DNA of 43,028 nucleotides, taken from IMG/VR virus record IMGVR_UViG_3300017527_000281, positions 1-43,028 of that record; one strand, given 5' to 3'. The notes under the pieces were generated by a model, which was not told where the DNA came from, ran no database searches, and worked only from the letters and a program-made list of their open reading frames with translations. Made by a program: the position numbers and the translations under genes. Below, one piece after another: positions 33,102 to 39,030 of the stretch (positions are counted from its first letter, which is position 1; every line of letters begins with the position of its first letter). Source of the DNA: a virus.

Positions 33102-33178
33102 GGGCCTGAGAATAGTTTCGACGCCGGTTAAGGCCGAATGGCATCCGGTGGACGCGGGGGCAGTACCCGCCAGGTCCA
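33102..33178 (+). ncRNA. Miniature tmRNA-like tRNA-like domain, copy 1
   Basis: The 77-base element has a 7-bp acceptor (GGGCCTG, 33102-33108, with CAGGTCC, 33171-33177) including G3-U70, a D-region AGAATAGTTTCGAC with no D-stem, a 6-bp middle arm (33122-33127 with 33145-33150), a 5-bp T-stem (GCGGG/CCCGC) and A at position 73. This is the plan of tmRNA's tRNA-like domain without the tag-coding region. The T-loop is GGCAGTA, not the usual TTCRANY. No encoded CCA follows. It lies in the 33047-33222 gap, which has no gene. Confidence 0.55.
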
Positions 33179-33576: not shown

Positions 33577-33791
33577 ACGCAGCGATTGCTCGGACTGGGT
33601 ATGATCAGTCGCGGTCGCGGTCGCGGTCGGGGTCGTGGTCGCGGTCGGGGCCGTGGTCGCGGTCGCGGTCGCGGTCGCGGTCGCGGTCGGGGTCGTGGTC
33701 GTGGTCGCGGTCGGGGTCGTGGTCGTGGTCGTGGTCGGGGTCGCGGTCGGGGTCGTGGTCGGGGTCGCGGTCGGGGTCGGGGCCGTGGTAA
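33573..33791 (+). CDS. Ser-(Arg/Gly/Trp) dipeptide repeat protein
   Basis: 72 residues: MNAAIARTGYDQ followed by 30 dipeptides. The second residue of each is Arg, Gly or Trp (two dipeptides start with Pro), set by the variable base of a TCGNGG hexamer. The ATG overlaps the preceding stop (ATGA) and has GAGGGCACAG upstream, which favours this frame over the Gly-Arg and Val-Ala frames also open through the array. The product is strongly basic and could bind RNA or DNA in a disordered form, like RS/RGG tails. It could also be only a by-product of the repeat. Confidence 0.5.
   Translation: MNAAIARTGYDQSRSRSRSGSWSRSGPWSRSRSRSRSRSGSWSWSRSGSWSWSWSGSRSGSWSGSRSGSGPW
33609..33788. repeat. TCGNGG hexamer array, 30 units
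   Basis: There are thirty consecutive 6-base units with the pattern TCGNGG, in which N is C, G or T (never A); two units begin CCG. All frames on both strands stay open for long stretches. The unit is a multiple of 3, in contrast to the 5-base array near 1.7 kb. Confidence 0.95.
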
Positions 33792-33800
33792 CACTTTACA

Positions 33801-33964
33801 AGTTGATAACGGTGCGCCCGTCGGGGACGGTGCGCAGCAAGCGTGGCGGGTAACGAGGCGTTGCTGTCCTGGTCGCAACCGCCCGCACCGTTTCAAGCCT
33901 GCGCTGGTCGAAGGCTCACGCTCAGTGCGTGGGGTAGGCAACATCTAGGCCAGCGCGGGTTTTC
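33801..33964 (+). ncRNA. Structured RNA element, copy 1
   Basis: AACGGTGCG (33808-33816) pairs with CGCACCGTT (33884-33892); GCCTGCGCTGG (33897-33907) pairs with CCAGCGCGGGT (33950-33960) with two GU pairs, followed by TTTT. The same two stems occur in copy 2 with different interiors. Inside are smaller stems, for example AGCAA/TTGCT and CACGC/GCGTG. The second stem plus T run could end transcription. No protein gene is credible here. Confidence 0.55.
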
Positions 33965-34153: not shown

Positions 34154-34169
34154 TCAGGCGCAGGCACAT

Positions 34170-34196
34170 CCCCCACGTGGGGAGAGGAGCAGAGAG
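34170..34196 (+). promoter_or_regulatory. Palindromic leader hairpin, copy 1
   Basis: CCCCACGTGGGG (34171-34182) is a 12-base palindrome followed by GGAGAGGAGCAGAGAG, which includes the ribosome site. The same 27 bases occur at 34776-34802 before another gene. The hairpin may regulate translation or act as a protein-binding site. Confidence 0.7.
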
Positions 34197-34413: not shown

Positions 34414-34489
34414 GGGCCTGGAAATGGTTTCGACCTCCCGCAACGCCAAGCGCGAGCGGGGGACATCGGTTCGATTCCGATCAGGTCCA
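34414..34489 (+). ncRNA. Miniature tmRNA-like tRNA-like domain, copy 2
   Basis: The 76-base element has acceptor GGGCCTG (34414-34420)/CAGGTCC (34482-34488) with G3-U70 and A at position 73, D-region GAAATGGTTTCGAC, a 7-bp middle arm (34435-34441 with 34456-34462), T-stem ATCGG/CCGAT and loop TTCGATT. The D-region matches tmRNA's GGxTTCGAC signature with the same 14-base spacing, and G3-U70 is the alanyl-tRNA synthetase identity pair. There is no tag ORF and no encoded CCA (CACT follows). It lies in a region without a gene. Confidence 0.65.
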
Positions 34490-34500
34490 CTAGCAGCACA

Positions 34501-34770
34501 TTGACAAGTTGATAACGGTGCGGCAGCGAGGGCAGCTCGTCACAGTGACGTAACCTGGGGAGACCTTGCGGGGCTCAAGAGACCCAATAGTAGGCCATCA
34601 GGTAACTGAGCGACCTGGCCCGCACCGTTTCATAGCCTGCGCTGCAAAACGCCACCAATGGCAGGGTGGACGAATAGGGATCGCCTTCCCTACGTACTCG
34701 GAAAGCCCTATGTACGGGATCGGTGCATAGGGACAAGGGGTCCGGTTCGAACCCGGTGCGCAGCGCGGGC
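34501..34770 (+). ncRNA. Structured RNA element, copy 2
   Basis: AACGGTGCGG (34514-34523) pairs with CCGCACCGTT (34620-34629); GCCTGCGCTGC (34635-34645) pairs with GCAGCGCGGGC (34760-34770). Compared with copy 1, G-U changes to G-C at the base and G-C changes to C-G at the top of the second stem, so pairing is kept by compensatory change. A T-arm-like hairpin (CCGG TTCGAAC CCGG, 34742-34756) lies just inside the second stem. The interior of the first stem is different from copy 1. No gene lies in 34490-34802. Confidence 0.55.
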
Positions 34771-34775
34771 AACAC

Positions 34776-34802
34776 CCCCCACGTGGGGAGAGGAGCAGAG
34801 AG
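34776..34802 (+). promoter_or_regulatory. Palindromic leader hairpin, copy 2
   Basis: Identical over 27 bases to 34170-34196, again directly before a start codon (GTG at 34803). Confidence 0.7.
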
Positions 34803-35200: not shown

Positions 35201-35341
35201 CAGAAGTACAAGCCGTCCCAACGGCTCATAGACAGCGAGGCTGATCCGCTCCCTTGTGAGGGTCGGTGGTCGTGTTTGGTGCAAGCCTCGCTCGCCTATC
35301 GACCTTGGGCCGACCTTCACAAGAGCGCGGATCTTTGTTTT
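35201..35341 (+). promoter_or_regulatory. Structured leader with terminator-like hairpin
   Basis: A small hairpin (AGCCGT/ACGGCT, 35211-35226) is followed by two helices: A, 35234-35242 with 35284-35292 (9 perfect pairs), and B, 35243-35266 with 35310-35333 (21 Watson-Crick pairs, one GU, two mismatches). B is followed by TTTGTTTT, as in an intrinsic terminator. A and B cross in order, so they form a pseudoknot or exclude each other. The ribosome site follows at 35342. An attenuator or RNA switch is inferred. Confidence 0.65.
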
Positions 35342-35357
35342 AGGAGGAGTCGAGAGA

Positions 35358-37682
35358 ATGAACCCGTATCAGGAGTTTCTCAAGTCCAAGATTCTGATGG
35401 TACCGCCAAAAGGAAAAGAGGTAGACCCAAACGACATCCACCCGCTGTTGTTCCCTTTTCAGCGTGATGTCACCACATGGTCAATTCGCAAGGGACGCGC
35501 TGCCGTGTTTCTGGACACAGGACTCGGAAAGACCTTTGTCCAGCTTGAGTGGGCGCGGCTGATAGGAGAAAATACGCTCATCATTGCGCCGCTATCTGTG
35601 TCCCGGCAGACTGTGCGAGAAGCGCAAAAGATCGATCTCGATGTTCGGTATGTTCGGGGAATGGACGAAATGGACCCCAACCACAAACTGTGGATCACCA
35701 ACTATGAGATGGCAGAGCATTTTGACATGTCGCAGTTTGGCGCCGTGGTGCTGGATGAGTCGAGCATACTCAAGGCCATCAACAGCAAAACTCGCAAGCG
35801 CCTGACAGAAACCTGCCAAGTCATACCCTATCGGCTGTGTTGCACCGCTACTCCTGCACCTAATGATTACATCGAGATCGGCAATCATGCTCAATTCCTG
35901 GGCATTGCCTCCCAGTCTGAAATGTTGGCGATGTTTTTCATCAATGCCAATAAAGAGCACACCTATACCTATGGCGGCAAGACCTATCACCGCAAGGGCA
36001 GCAACAAGGGCGGGCAGGAGTGGCGGCTCAAGCATCACGGAGAGCAAGCGTTTTTCCGCTGGCTGTCCACCTGGGCAATCACGATGACAAAGCCCTCTGA
36101 CCTCGGCTACGATGATGATGGATTCATTTTGCCGCCCTTGAATATCATCCCCACATTTGTCCAGATTGACAACTATGAGGCTGACGATCAACTATTCTTT
36201 ACACATCTGAAAGGCATCAAACACAGATCCCAGGTACGCCGGGATACGTTACCACAACGGCTCGAAGTGCTGGCAGAGCTGGTCAACAACTCGGACGAAC
36301 AGTGGATTATATGGGCGGGGCTGAACGAGGAAAGCAAAGCCGCCACGGCCGCGATCGATGGCGCCGTAGAGGTACGCGGAGATCAGCCACCAGATTACAA
36401 GGCTCAGACCTTTGAGCAGTTCCAAGACGGCGAGGTCAAGGTGCTAGTCACCAAGACAAAGATCGGCGGGTTCGGCCTCAACATGCAGAATGCCCACAAC
36501 ATGGCATTTCTTGGGTTGTCCGATAGTTGGGAGAGCTACTATCAGGCTGTTCGCCGAGAGTGGAGATACCGACAGAAATATCCGGTCAACGTCCATATCA
36601 TTATGTCATCGCTTGAATCAGAGATATACCAGAACGTGATGCGCAAAGACGCAATGGCCGCACGGCTGCGGTCTGGTTTGGTTGAACAAATCAAAGAATA
36701 TGAGAAAGGGGAACTTGAGATGATAGACACAGAGCGCAGCATTTATGATGAGGACATTGTGCAAGGCGAAAACTGGACCGCGATGCTAGGCGATTCCTGT
36801 AAGCGAATGGGAGAGATCGCAACAGACAGCATTGACTTGTCTGTGTACTCGCCCCCTTTTGCAGACCTGTACACATACACAGACTCAGAGCGTGACCTCG
36901 GCAACTGCAAAGATTGGGGCGAGTTCTTTGGACACTATGCCTACATCGTGCGGGAGCTGCTCAGAATCACCAAGCCGGGACGCTTGACCTGCTGTCACTG
37001 TATGGACATTCCCGCAATGATGCAAAAAGACGGCTGGATGGGCCTGAAAGACTTTTCCGGCGCTCTCATTCAGGCATACACCCAAGAGGGCTGGACGCTT
37101 CACGATCGAGTTGTTATTGACAAGAACCCGCAGGCGCAGGCTATCCGCACTCACTCCCACGGGCTGCTGTTCAAGACCCTGGACAAAGACTCGATCCGCT
37201 CTCACACTGCTATACCCGATCAGATACTTGTGTTCCGCAAGGATGGCGATAACCAGAATCCAGTACGCCCAGTCGAAAACGGCGATATGGATAATGAGGT
37301 CTGGATTCAGTGGGCGCGCCCGATCTGGTATGCCGCTGATTATACCCCGGCACAATTGCCCAATCCAGGCGGCGGCATCTCTGAGACGGGAACGCTGCAG
37401 TTCGGCAAGGCGCGGGGCACAGGAGACGAGAAGCACATCTGCCCACTGCAGCTCGGAACCATCGAGCGGTGCATCAAACTGTGGAGCAACCCCGGCGAGA
37501 CTGTTTTCAGCCCGTTCGCCGGCATTGGCAGTGAGGGATACCAGGCTTTGAGCTTTGGGCGCAAGTTCATCGGGATCGAATTGAAACCGTCTTACTTTGC
37601 GATTATGCTGGAGAATCTCAACAAGTCTGAAATCAAAGCCAATACGCCTGACCTGTTCTCCTTGGCAGGGATTGCGGTATGA
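35358..37682 (+). CDS. SNF2-type helicase/DNA methyltransferase fusion
   Basis: 774 residues; ATG with TAGGAGGAG upstream. Helicase part: DTGLGKT (53-59, Walker A), VLDES (131-135, motif II), TATPAPND (163-170, motif III), KTKIGGFGLNMQNAH (366-380, motif V) and QAVRREWRYRQ (396-406, motif VI). Methyltransferase part: VYSPPF (496-501, catalytic motif IV) precedes FAGIGSEG (720-727, SAM motif I) and FIGIELKPSYF, the beta-class order of N6-adenine/N4-cytosine enzymes. The fusion probably modifies DNA while remodelling it, for replication or restriction evasion. The end overlaps the next gene by ATGA. Confidence 0.88.
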   Translation: MNPYQEFLKSKILMVPPKGKEVDPNDIHPLLFPFQRDVTTWSIRKGRAAVFLDTGLGKTFVQLEWARLIGENTLIIAPLSVSRQTVREAQKIDLDVRYVRGMDEMDPNHKLWITNYEMAEHFDMSQFGAVVLDESSILKAINSKTRKRLTETCQVIPYRLCCTATPAPNDYIEIGNHAQFLGIASQSEMLAMFFINANKEHTYTYGGKTYHRKGSNKGGQEWRLKHHGEQAFFRWLSTWAITMTKPSDLGYDDDGFILPPLNIIPTFVQIDNYEADDQLFFTHLKGIKHRSQVRRDTLPQRLEVLAELVNNSDEQWIIWAGLNEESKAATAAIDGAVEVRGDQPPDYKAQTFEQFQDGEVKVLVTKTKIGGFGLNMQNAHNMAFLGLSDSWESYYQAVRREWRYRQKYPVNVHIIMSSLESEIYQNVMRKDAMAARLRSGLVEQIKEYEKGELEMIDTERSIYDEDIVQGENWTAMLGDSCKRMGEIATDSIDLSVYSPPFADLYTYTDSERDLGNCKDWGEFFGHYAYIVRELLRITKPGRLTCCHCMDIPAMMQKDGWMGLKDFSGALIQAYTQEGWTLHDRVVIDKNPQAQAIRTHSHGLLFKTLDKDSIRSHTAIPDQILVFRKDGDNQNPVRPVENGDMDNEVWIQWARPIWYAADYTPAQLPNPGGGISETGTLQFGKARGTGDEKHICPLQLGTIERCIKLWSNPGETVFSPFAGIGSEGYQALSFGRKFIGIELKPSYFAIMLENLNKSEIKANTPDLFSLAGIAV

Positions 37683-38455
37683 GAAAATACGATCTGCCCG
37701 TTGATATGATTTTCAGCATCACGCCTACAGACCCCCTTGCCTTTATGGCGGCGCGAATGGGGTTCTTGATTGGCACAAACAGCGGGCAGAAATGTCTGGT
37801 GGAACGCCCAGAACATTATACATGGGCATTCCCTATTTCTTTCATAGACAATGAATTCAAGAAGTACGACCACGATGCACATATGGCAGCAATCAAGCAG
37901 CATCGGCCCAAATATGCCACTGTGCGAGATGCAATGACCTCAGTGCAATGCTGTCGCGCAGGGATTGAGCATTTTGACCTTGACATCATCCTGGCGTGGG
38001 CTGAGGAAGTAGAGCAGTATGCCGAGAACGTGATAGTCATTCCCAAGTGGGATTGTTTGGCAGAAATTCCAGAACGATTCATCCTGGGATACTCGATACC
38101 ATCACGCTATGCTGGAACCCCTCTCCCTTTTGAGATGTTCAGAGGCCGAAAGATTCACCTGCTCGGCGGTAGTTGGAAAAAGCAACTCAAATACCTGCAA
38201 TTTGCCAAAGATGACATCGTAAGCCTGGACAATAACAATCTCTGGAAATGCTCAGTGTATGGGGGATTCGACTGGCCCGATGGCAAGAAGGGATCGCTCC
38301 ATGATCTAGGAATCACAGAACTAACTAGCCCGATGTATGCCAGCGTAGCAATGAGTCTCGGGCATATCGCCACAAAGCTACATCAACTCTACAACGAACC
38401 ACAAAAATCAATCGAATTCGCAGTACAACTACCAGGAATGGAGAAAGTGACATGA
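37679..38455 (+). CDS. DpdA-like DNA transglycosylase (candidate)
   Basis: 258 residues. IVIPKWDCLAEIPERFILGYSIPSRYAGTPLPFEMF followed by RGRKIHLLGGSWKKQLKYLQFAKDDIVSLD resembles phage DpdA/TGT-like proteins (TIM barrel), which exchange guanine in DNA for a 7-deazaguanine base. DxxILAWAEEVEQYAENV is another barrel block. The length (258) is shorter than DpdA1. The following gene is a YhhQ-type queuosine-precursor transporter, which makes this function more likely. It overlaps both neighbours. Tests of the active site and of 7-deazaguanine in the virion DNA are lacking. Confidence 0.6.
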   Translation: MRKYDLPVDMIFSITPTDPLAFMAARMGFLIGTNSGQKCLVERPEHYTWAFPISFIDNEFKKYDHDAHMAAIKQHRPKYATVRDAMTSVQCCRAGIEHFDLDIILAWAEEVEQYAENVIVIPKWDCLAEIPERFILGYSIPSRYAGTPLPFEMFRGRKIHLLGGSWKKQLKYLQFAKDDIVSLDNNNLWKCSVYGGFDWPDGKKGSLHDLGITELTSPMYASVAMSLGHIATKLHQLYNEPQKSIEFAVQLPGMEKVT

Positions 38456-39030
38456 TTGTAATTTGTGCATACATCGCCGCTCAGATGTTTTCAGACATTA
38501 TGAGCCTCAAGATAGTCTCGTTATTTGGTCTTTCAATGGACGCGGGAACCCTGATCTATCCCATCACGTTCACGCTCCGCGATTTGGTCCACAAGACATT
38601 AGGCAAACAGAAAGCACGGCAGCTCATTGTTGTCGCCGCCGCCATCAATGTCGTGATGGCATTGCTCTTTTGGGTAACAAGCATCCTGCCATACGACTTG
38701 GGCGCAGGACCACAACCAGATTGGGATAGCGTTCTCGCTCCTGTATGGCGCATCGTTGTGGCTTCGATTGTGGCCGAAGTGCTCAGTGAGTTTCTGGACA
38801 CAGAAATGTATCACCTGTGGGTCACAAAGATCACGCAGCGATACCAGTGGATGCGCGTGTTGGTCAGTAATACAGTTTCGGTTCCTGTTGACAGCCTGGT
38901 CTTTTGCTGGATCGCTTTTGGTGGCATCCTGCCGGCAGCTATCGTGTGGGCAATTGTGTGGGCCAATGTTCTGCTCAAGGGTGCCTGCACTCTGCTTTCA
39001 TTACCTATGATCTACGCAGTCAAAGAGTAA
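38452..39030 (+). CDS. YhhQ/QPTR-type queuosine-precursor transporter
   Basis: 192 residues, ATGA overlap with the previous gene. FSDIMSLKIVSLFGLSMDAGTLIYPITFTLRDLVHKTLGKQKAR matches the COG1738 (YhhQ, Vut) signature. About six hydrophobic segments (near 2-20, 32-46, 57-80, 95-115, 140-158, 162-185) alternate with short loops; a DTEMYHLW and VTKITQRY loop follow the fourth. It should import preQ0, preQ1 or queuine into the cell. The coupling with a DpdA-like gene suggests supply of 7-deazaguanine for phage DNA or for tRNA modification. Confidence 0.8.
   Translation: MIVICAYIAAQMFSDIMSLKIVSLFGLSMDAGTLIYPITFTLRDLVHKTLGKQKARQLIVVAAAINVVMALLFWVTSILPYDLGAGPQPDWDSVLAPVWRIVVASIVAEVLSEFLDTEMYHLWVTKITQRYQWMRVLVSNTVSVPVDSLVFCWIAFGGILPAAIVWAIVWANVLLKGACTLLSLPMIYAVKE

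Follow-up and report, generated by a model that had tools for sequence, protein, structure and literature searches.

A 76-base segment of a viral DNA stretch of 43,028 nucleotides (the window) has the size of a tRNA gene and the sequence hallmarks of a tmRNA gene. It raises the question of which kind of RNA it encodes and what that RNA could do for a phage. The preliminary description of the window had read the segment as a complete tRNA-like domain (TLD) of tmRNA without a tag ORF, a reading now confirmed by the sequence, by the Rfam tmRNA model RF00023 and by a model, R1, whose training set was 44 sequences from other phages and excluded the window. The features of the element, together with a second copy in the window, are as follows.

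34,414–34,489, + strand: TLD-only tmRNA (mini-tmRNA), whole element; R1 59.5 bits, E 7e-13; RF00023 50.7 bits
34,414–34,420, + strand: acceptor stem, 5′ strand GGGCCUG, with G3 at 34,416; partner 34,482–34,488; family covariation
34,425–34,434, + strand: tmRNA-type D-region core UGGUUUCGAC, without D-stem; core identical in full bacterial tmRNAs L261 and L266
34,435–34,462, + strand: closed P2 arm replacing the mRNA-like domain, with an inner CGC/GCG hairpin; sequence and P2 covariation
34,465–34,481, + strand: T-arm AUCGG-UUCGAUU-CCGAU; sequence and R1 match
34,482–34,489, + strand: acceptor stem, 3′ strand CAGGUCC (U70 at 34,486), and A73; sequence
33,102–33,178, + strand: second, divergent and weaker mini-tmRNA copy; R1 47.3 bits, above the 39.9-bit ceiling of 346 bacterial genomes

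Architecture of the element and its relation to tmRNA

A small ORF ends with its stop codon 7 bases before the element, which consists, in order, of GGGCCUG, GAAA, UGGUUUCGAC, CUCCCGC, AACGCCAAGCGCGA, GCGGGGG, AC, AUCGG, UUCGAUU, CCGAU, CAGGUCC and A. CCA is not encoded, A73 being followed by CUA, and two more structured segments come after the element. It has the defining features of a tmRNA TLD, namely the UGG-UUCGAC core, the T-arm and the lack of a D-stem. An mRNA-like domain with a tag reading frame and pseudoknots is missing at 34,414–34,489, where the 30 bases between the D core and the T-arm leave no space for a tag frame. The features of a canonical tRNA (cloverleaf, D-stem and 7-nt anticodon loop) are likewise missing, the D-stem being absent and ARAGORN giving no call.

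RF00023 matches the element above its cut-off of 47 bits in an alignment that spans model positions 1–374. As the alignment extends to both model ends, the entire mRNA-like domain is missing from the element. The same model, again with this domain deleted, scores above the cut-off in 45 of 50 carrier records, and cmscan at default settings confirms it in 16 of 17 loci at 59–72 bits. Full bacterial tmRNAs, retrieved as off-family matches, carry GGGGGCG followed by UGGUUUCGAC on the 5′ side, and GGAC, the T-arm and CGCCUCCA on the 3′ side. The phage RNA and bacterial tmRNA (RF00023) have in common the acceptor with G3-U70, A73, the UGG-UUCGAC D core, the GGAC linker and the T-arm. In contrast, the phage RNA lacks the mRNA-like domain, the pseudoknots and the tag, and measures about 65–85 nt compared with about 350. 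With phage tRNA genes it shares length, a tRNA array context and a CCA that is mostly not encoded, but it differs from them in having neither a tRNA-type anticodon arm nor a D-stem and in being uncalled by ARAGORN. Mimicry of the tmRNA TLD, as proposed at the outset, is strongly supported by tmRNA covariance-model homology, covariation and the retention of G3-U70 and A73. Judged by its sequence, 34,414–34,489 can with strong support be assigned as a phage RNA gene encoding a tmRNA of which the TLD alone remains.

Some details of the preliminary description required revision. Its 7-bp acceptor with G3-U70, A73, missing D-stem and canonical T-arm hold, whereas its 7-bp P2 arm may instead comprise 5 bp (CCCGC/GCGGG) followed by GGAC rather than 7 bp followed by AC, since most family members, like bacterial tmRNA, have GGAC as the linker leading into the T-arm. 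Rfam and ARAGORN scans, which it had put forward as checks, succeeded in part, RF00023 matching as above but cmscan at default settings and ARAGORN not reporting the element. Minimum-energy folding, another such check, slightly favours an alternative fold over the TLD fold (−35.6 versus −32.5 kcal/mol). With thermodynamics favouring the alternative by about 3 kcal/mol, the TLD fold depends on comparative evidence, and on that evidence it stands.

Phage relatives, covariation and alanine identity

Relatives were identified with a pattern made up of the D core and the T-loop only, separated by a short gap, with acceptor pairing not required. This first pattern retrieved 70 viral contigs, and variants of it yielded more; 186 of 234 pattern matches (130 unique) form acceptor and T stems. 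A filter for GGG, UCC and A73 gave 125 distinct sequences at 179 loci. These pattern scans put the family at 125 or more distinct relatives spread over about 180 viral contigs; a search of related contigs had been among the proposed checks. The spacer between the D core and the T-arm is mostly 30–36 bases, CCA is encoded in 32 of the 125 members, and tag-like frames occur across the family at chance (48 versus 49.2 expected in shuffles). A hidden tag frame was rejected, the coding potential across the family being the same as in shuffles.

Covariation was assessed in 44 sequences aligned by letters alone and pre-selected with GGG and UCC. Pairing in this set reaches 99.7% in the acceptor, 92.6% in P2 and 99.5% in the T stem, with abundant two-sided changes, and the P2 tip helix is 79.4% paired. 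Paired cells make up 94.7%, compared with 62.8% in shuffles, and the covariation score of 0.771 (0.155 in shuffles) was reached by none of 500 shuffles. Across the family, two-sided changes are found at all seven P2 pairs (7/7). The P2 tip carries a motif of its own, AARNCC-loop-GGNA, present in 63 of 92 sequences versus 10.9 in shuffles.

Acceptor pairs 4–7 vary freely, while pair 3-70 is GU in 44 of 44 sequences of the set pre-selected with GGG and UCC. Without any acceptor restriction, G3-U70 is present in 125 of the 130 unique candidates. By our own sorting, the remaining five look like chance matches, a tRNA and a register shift, with L205 (G3-C70) as the sole real exception. A prospective check with two further D-region variants, in which acceptor letters were absent from the pattern, gave 18 matches; 14 form all pairs, and all 14 have G3-U70 and A73. 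The preliminary description had named loss of acceptor pairing and G3-U70 in relatives as counting against it, and both are retained.

The specificity of R1 was gauged on 346 bacterial genomes from two phyla, in which no match exceeded 39.9 bits. Twelve of the top matches were checked, and all but one (11 of 12) proved to be host tmRNA or tRNA-Ala. R1 recovers all 50 carrier records tested (50/50), with one strong copy apiece, a recovery that is not independent because training sequences are among these records. Across bacterial and archaeal genomes totalling 257 billion bases, the first pattern produced only 10 matches, four of which score 61–92 bits with R1 (L076, L078, L080 and L081), all in metagenome bins. 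ARAGORN ‘tmRNA’ calls in L015, L051, L035, L082, L084 and L099 join the 3′ end of a mini element to a far-off 5′ half and are probably false. Microbacterium phages Quenya (L235:1939–2027) and LeeroyJenkins (L236:1926–2024) encode tRNA-like RNAs with the acceptor GGGCCUG/CAGGUCC, G3-U70 and A73, which adjoin a tRNA gene and are uncalled by ARAGORN. They were excluded from the family count because their R1 scores (38 and 23 bits, respectively) lie at or below the noise ceiling.

Carriers, genomic context and the second copy

Named carriers include the Streptomyces phages LuckySocke, GiJojo, Alone3, pSt2308, BRock, Shaeky, Tomas and Naboo and the Stenotrophomonas phage Jojan60, in all of which the RNA has gone unrecognised; in GiJojo it sits inside an annotated hypothetical ORF. 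Elements of named phages are mostly found inside or beside tRNA arrays. A tRNA lies within 1 kb of 37 elements, and all but one of these (36 of 37) are on its strand. Another lineage has the element a little upstream of the gene for the major capsid protein, with 12 distinct elements at 29 loci. This placement is seen in L163, L103, L008 and L041, the L103 element following a prohead protease gene. A flanking ORF of 376–400 aa, first taken for a possible integrase, encodes the major capsid protein at four loci and the portal at one. None of the 50 carrier records encodes SmpB; as many of them are fragments, this does not establish its absence from each genome.

The copy at 33,102–33,178, missing from the preliminary description, has the acceptor GGGCCUG/CAGGUCC of 34,414–34,489, so that both window copies carry the alanine identity elements G3-U70 and A73. 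Its P2 tip reads AAGGCC-GAAU-GGCA. The stems are kept, but UGG is changed to UAG and the T-loop is replaced by GGCAGUA, and with these changes the copy departs from the D core and T-arm that define a tmRNA TLD. The Tomas and Naboo type likewise has altered D or T loops and retains G3-U70.

BLAST of the window and of the element alone gave no close named phage, and the proteins encoded next to the element gave no hint of its function. Other features of the window were noted in passing. A two-hairpin RNA module occurs twice, at 33,803–33,964 and 34,507–34,771, with common AAGTTGATAACGGTGCG...CCGCACCGTTTCA and an outer stem GCCTGCGCTG/CAGCGCGGG; a DUF3800-VIII RNA lies within the first copy, at 33,893–33,964, and the second, which is longer, contains the T-arm-like CCGGTTCGAACCCGG. 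The palindrome CCCCACGTGGGG, with GAGAGGAGCAGAGAG after it, stands ahead of a start codon at both 34,168–34,195 and 34,769–34,798 and is likely a repeated regulatory or ribosome-binding block. At about 33,600–33,790 there is a low-complexity repeat, one frame of which encodes a long tract of RG dipeptides (MISRGRGRG...) and a second frame an RS/GS/WS tract. A helicase-methyltransferase fusion at 35,256–37,682 has 46% identity to mycobacteriophage Emma proteins, and 38,452–39,030 is a Vut_1 (PF02592) transporter gene in a phage.

Possible roles in ribosome rescue

SmpB is expected to bind tmRNA-like molecules at their D and T loops. We consider it probable, at roughly 0.6, that the mini-tmRNA acts as an alanylated, SmpB-binding competitor of trans-translation; its expression, charging, SmpB binding and effect on infection are inferred. 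The transcript would be trimmed as a tRNA is and then receive CCA, be charged by host AlaRS via G3-U70 and be bound by host SmpB and EF-Tu, allowing it to compete with host tmRNA for SmpB and stalled ribosomes. With no message part, it could not tag the stalled chain for proteolysis, and trans-translation is proposed to be blocked or diverted during infection.

The preliminary description knew of no stand-alone version in phages, which does not hold: in 2014, Hudson et al. (PMC4131195) listed the mycobacteriophage DS6A as ‘TLD only’. It is the sole phage case named in that paper and in PMC11915505. The passages of these two papers that cite Mao et al. 2009 state that a TLD-only molecule is a strong inhibitor of tmRNA in E. 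coli whether or not it can be charged, perhaps, as PMC4131195 suggests, through SmpB titration. A decoy or regulatory role is plausible by analogy with this inhibition. However, since inhibition is reported not to need charging, pure SmpB titration does not explain the near-invariant G3-U70, a pair whose retention suggests that charging is important in nature. A simple decoy model also leaves the conserved P2 tip without a function, and the altered D or T loops beside an intact acceptor and P2 tip at 33,102–33,178 and in Tomas and Naboo also fit a pure SmpB decoy poorly.

The leading alternative is that the charged mini-tmRNA enters stalled ribosomes with SmpB and takes over the nascent chain, after which the ribosome is recycled and Pth cleaves the peptidyl-RNA. 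Phage translation would thereby be aided while mRNAs are cut, without tagging for degradation. The importance of charging implied by G3-U70 and the occurrence of elements in tRNA arrays near RNA ligase genes are consistent with such tagless rescue, as is the retention of mitochondrial tmRNAs without a tag frame together with SmpB (PMC11915505). We nevertheless regard it as unlikely, as the published data show inhibition, not rescue. Moreover, no route is known by which a ribosome would be freed like this when both message and release factor are lacking. Like the tagless mitochondrial tmRNAs, the CDS-less plastid tmRNAs of Mallomonadaceae resemble the phage RNAs in lacking a tag frame, and plastid versions of about 65 bp are described; in contrast to phage RNAs in tRNA arrays, these are organellar genes (PMC11915505).

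The members with a changed D or T loop, the copy at 33,102–33,178 among them, together with the enrichment of the P2 tip motif, are also what one would expect if the RNA acted through AlaRS or another RNA-binding protein instead of SmpB, for example as an alanyl acceptor drawing charged alanine or as a binder of a host tRNA-targeting defence protein. Most members, however, retain two tmRNA features that AlaRS is not known to require, the D core and the GGAC linker, leaving this reading quite improbable. The short distance upstream of the major capsid gene in 29 loci could point to a tRNA-like element acting in cis on the processing or translation of phage mRNAs; this is very unlikely, given that downstream genes vary by lineage, many copies lie in tRNA arrays and G3-U70 is not known as a requirement for RNase P cleavage. 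Least credible is an attachment site of the phage derived from host ssrA, whether a working copy or a relic: phages do integrate into tmRNA genes, and TClif, reported to use the tmRNA attB-9 site (PMC10865867), has a 3′ ssrA-like stretch beside its integrase. TClif, however, has the 3′ half only (17 bits with R1), whereas both halves are present in the family, along with strong covariation and a P2 arm that host tmRNAs lack. The flanks examined hold tRNA arrays or genes for capsid, portal, protease or helicase, and DS6A is listed as integrating at tRNA-Lys (PMC10865867). For the window itself this site was rejected, the TLD being complete with covarying stems and an integrase being absent among the subset of window ORFs whose proteins were scanned.

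The element is real, conserved and of a known but barely described kind. In the papers found, TLD-only phage tmRNA is confined to one phage, one table and a few sentences, and the breadth of the family is not described in the literature searched, which lay mostly outside subscription journals. What is new here is this breadth, the near-invariant alanine identity pair despite charging being reported as dispensable for inhibition, and the conserved P2 tip. The family suggests that many phages interfere with, or hijack, the host ribosome-rescue system. Phage control of trans-translation becomes directly testable in laboratory strains, given 125 or more distinct versions that covary and that had gone unrecognised in cultured phages of Streptomyces and Stenotrophomonas. 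Near-invariance of G3-U70, with charging dispensable for inhibition, points to a charge-dependent role so far unexplained. We offer, tentatively and with the odds against it, a broader view in which the members of a widespread phage RNA family would be alanylated and serve tagless rescue or diversion on stalled ribosomes, with the P2 tip as a second functional site. If true, charged tagless rescue or diversion would represent a distinct phage strategy for controlling ribosome rescue, beyond simple SmpB titration.
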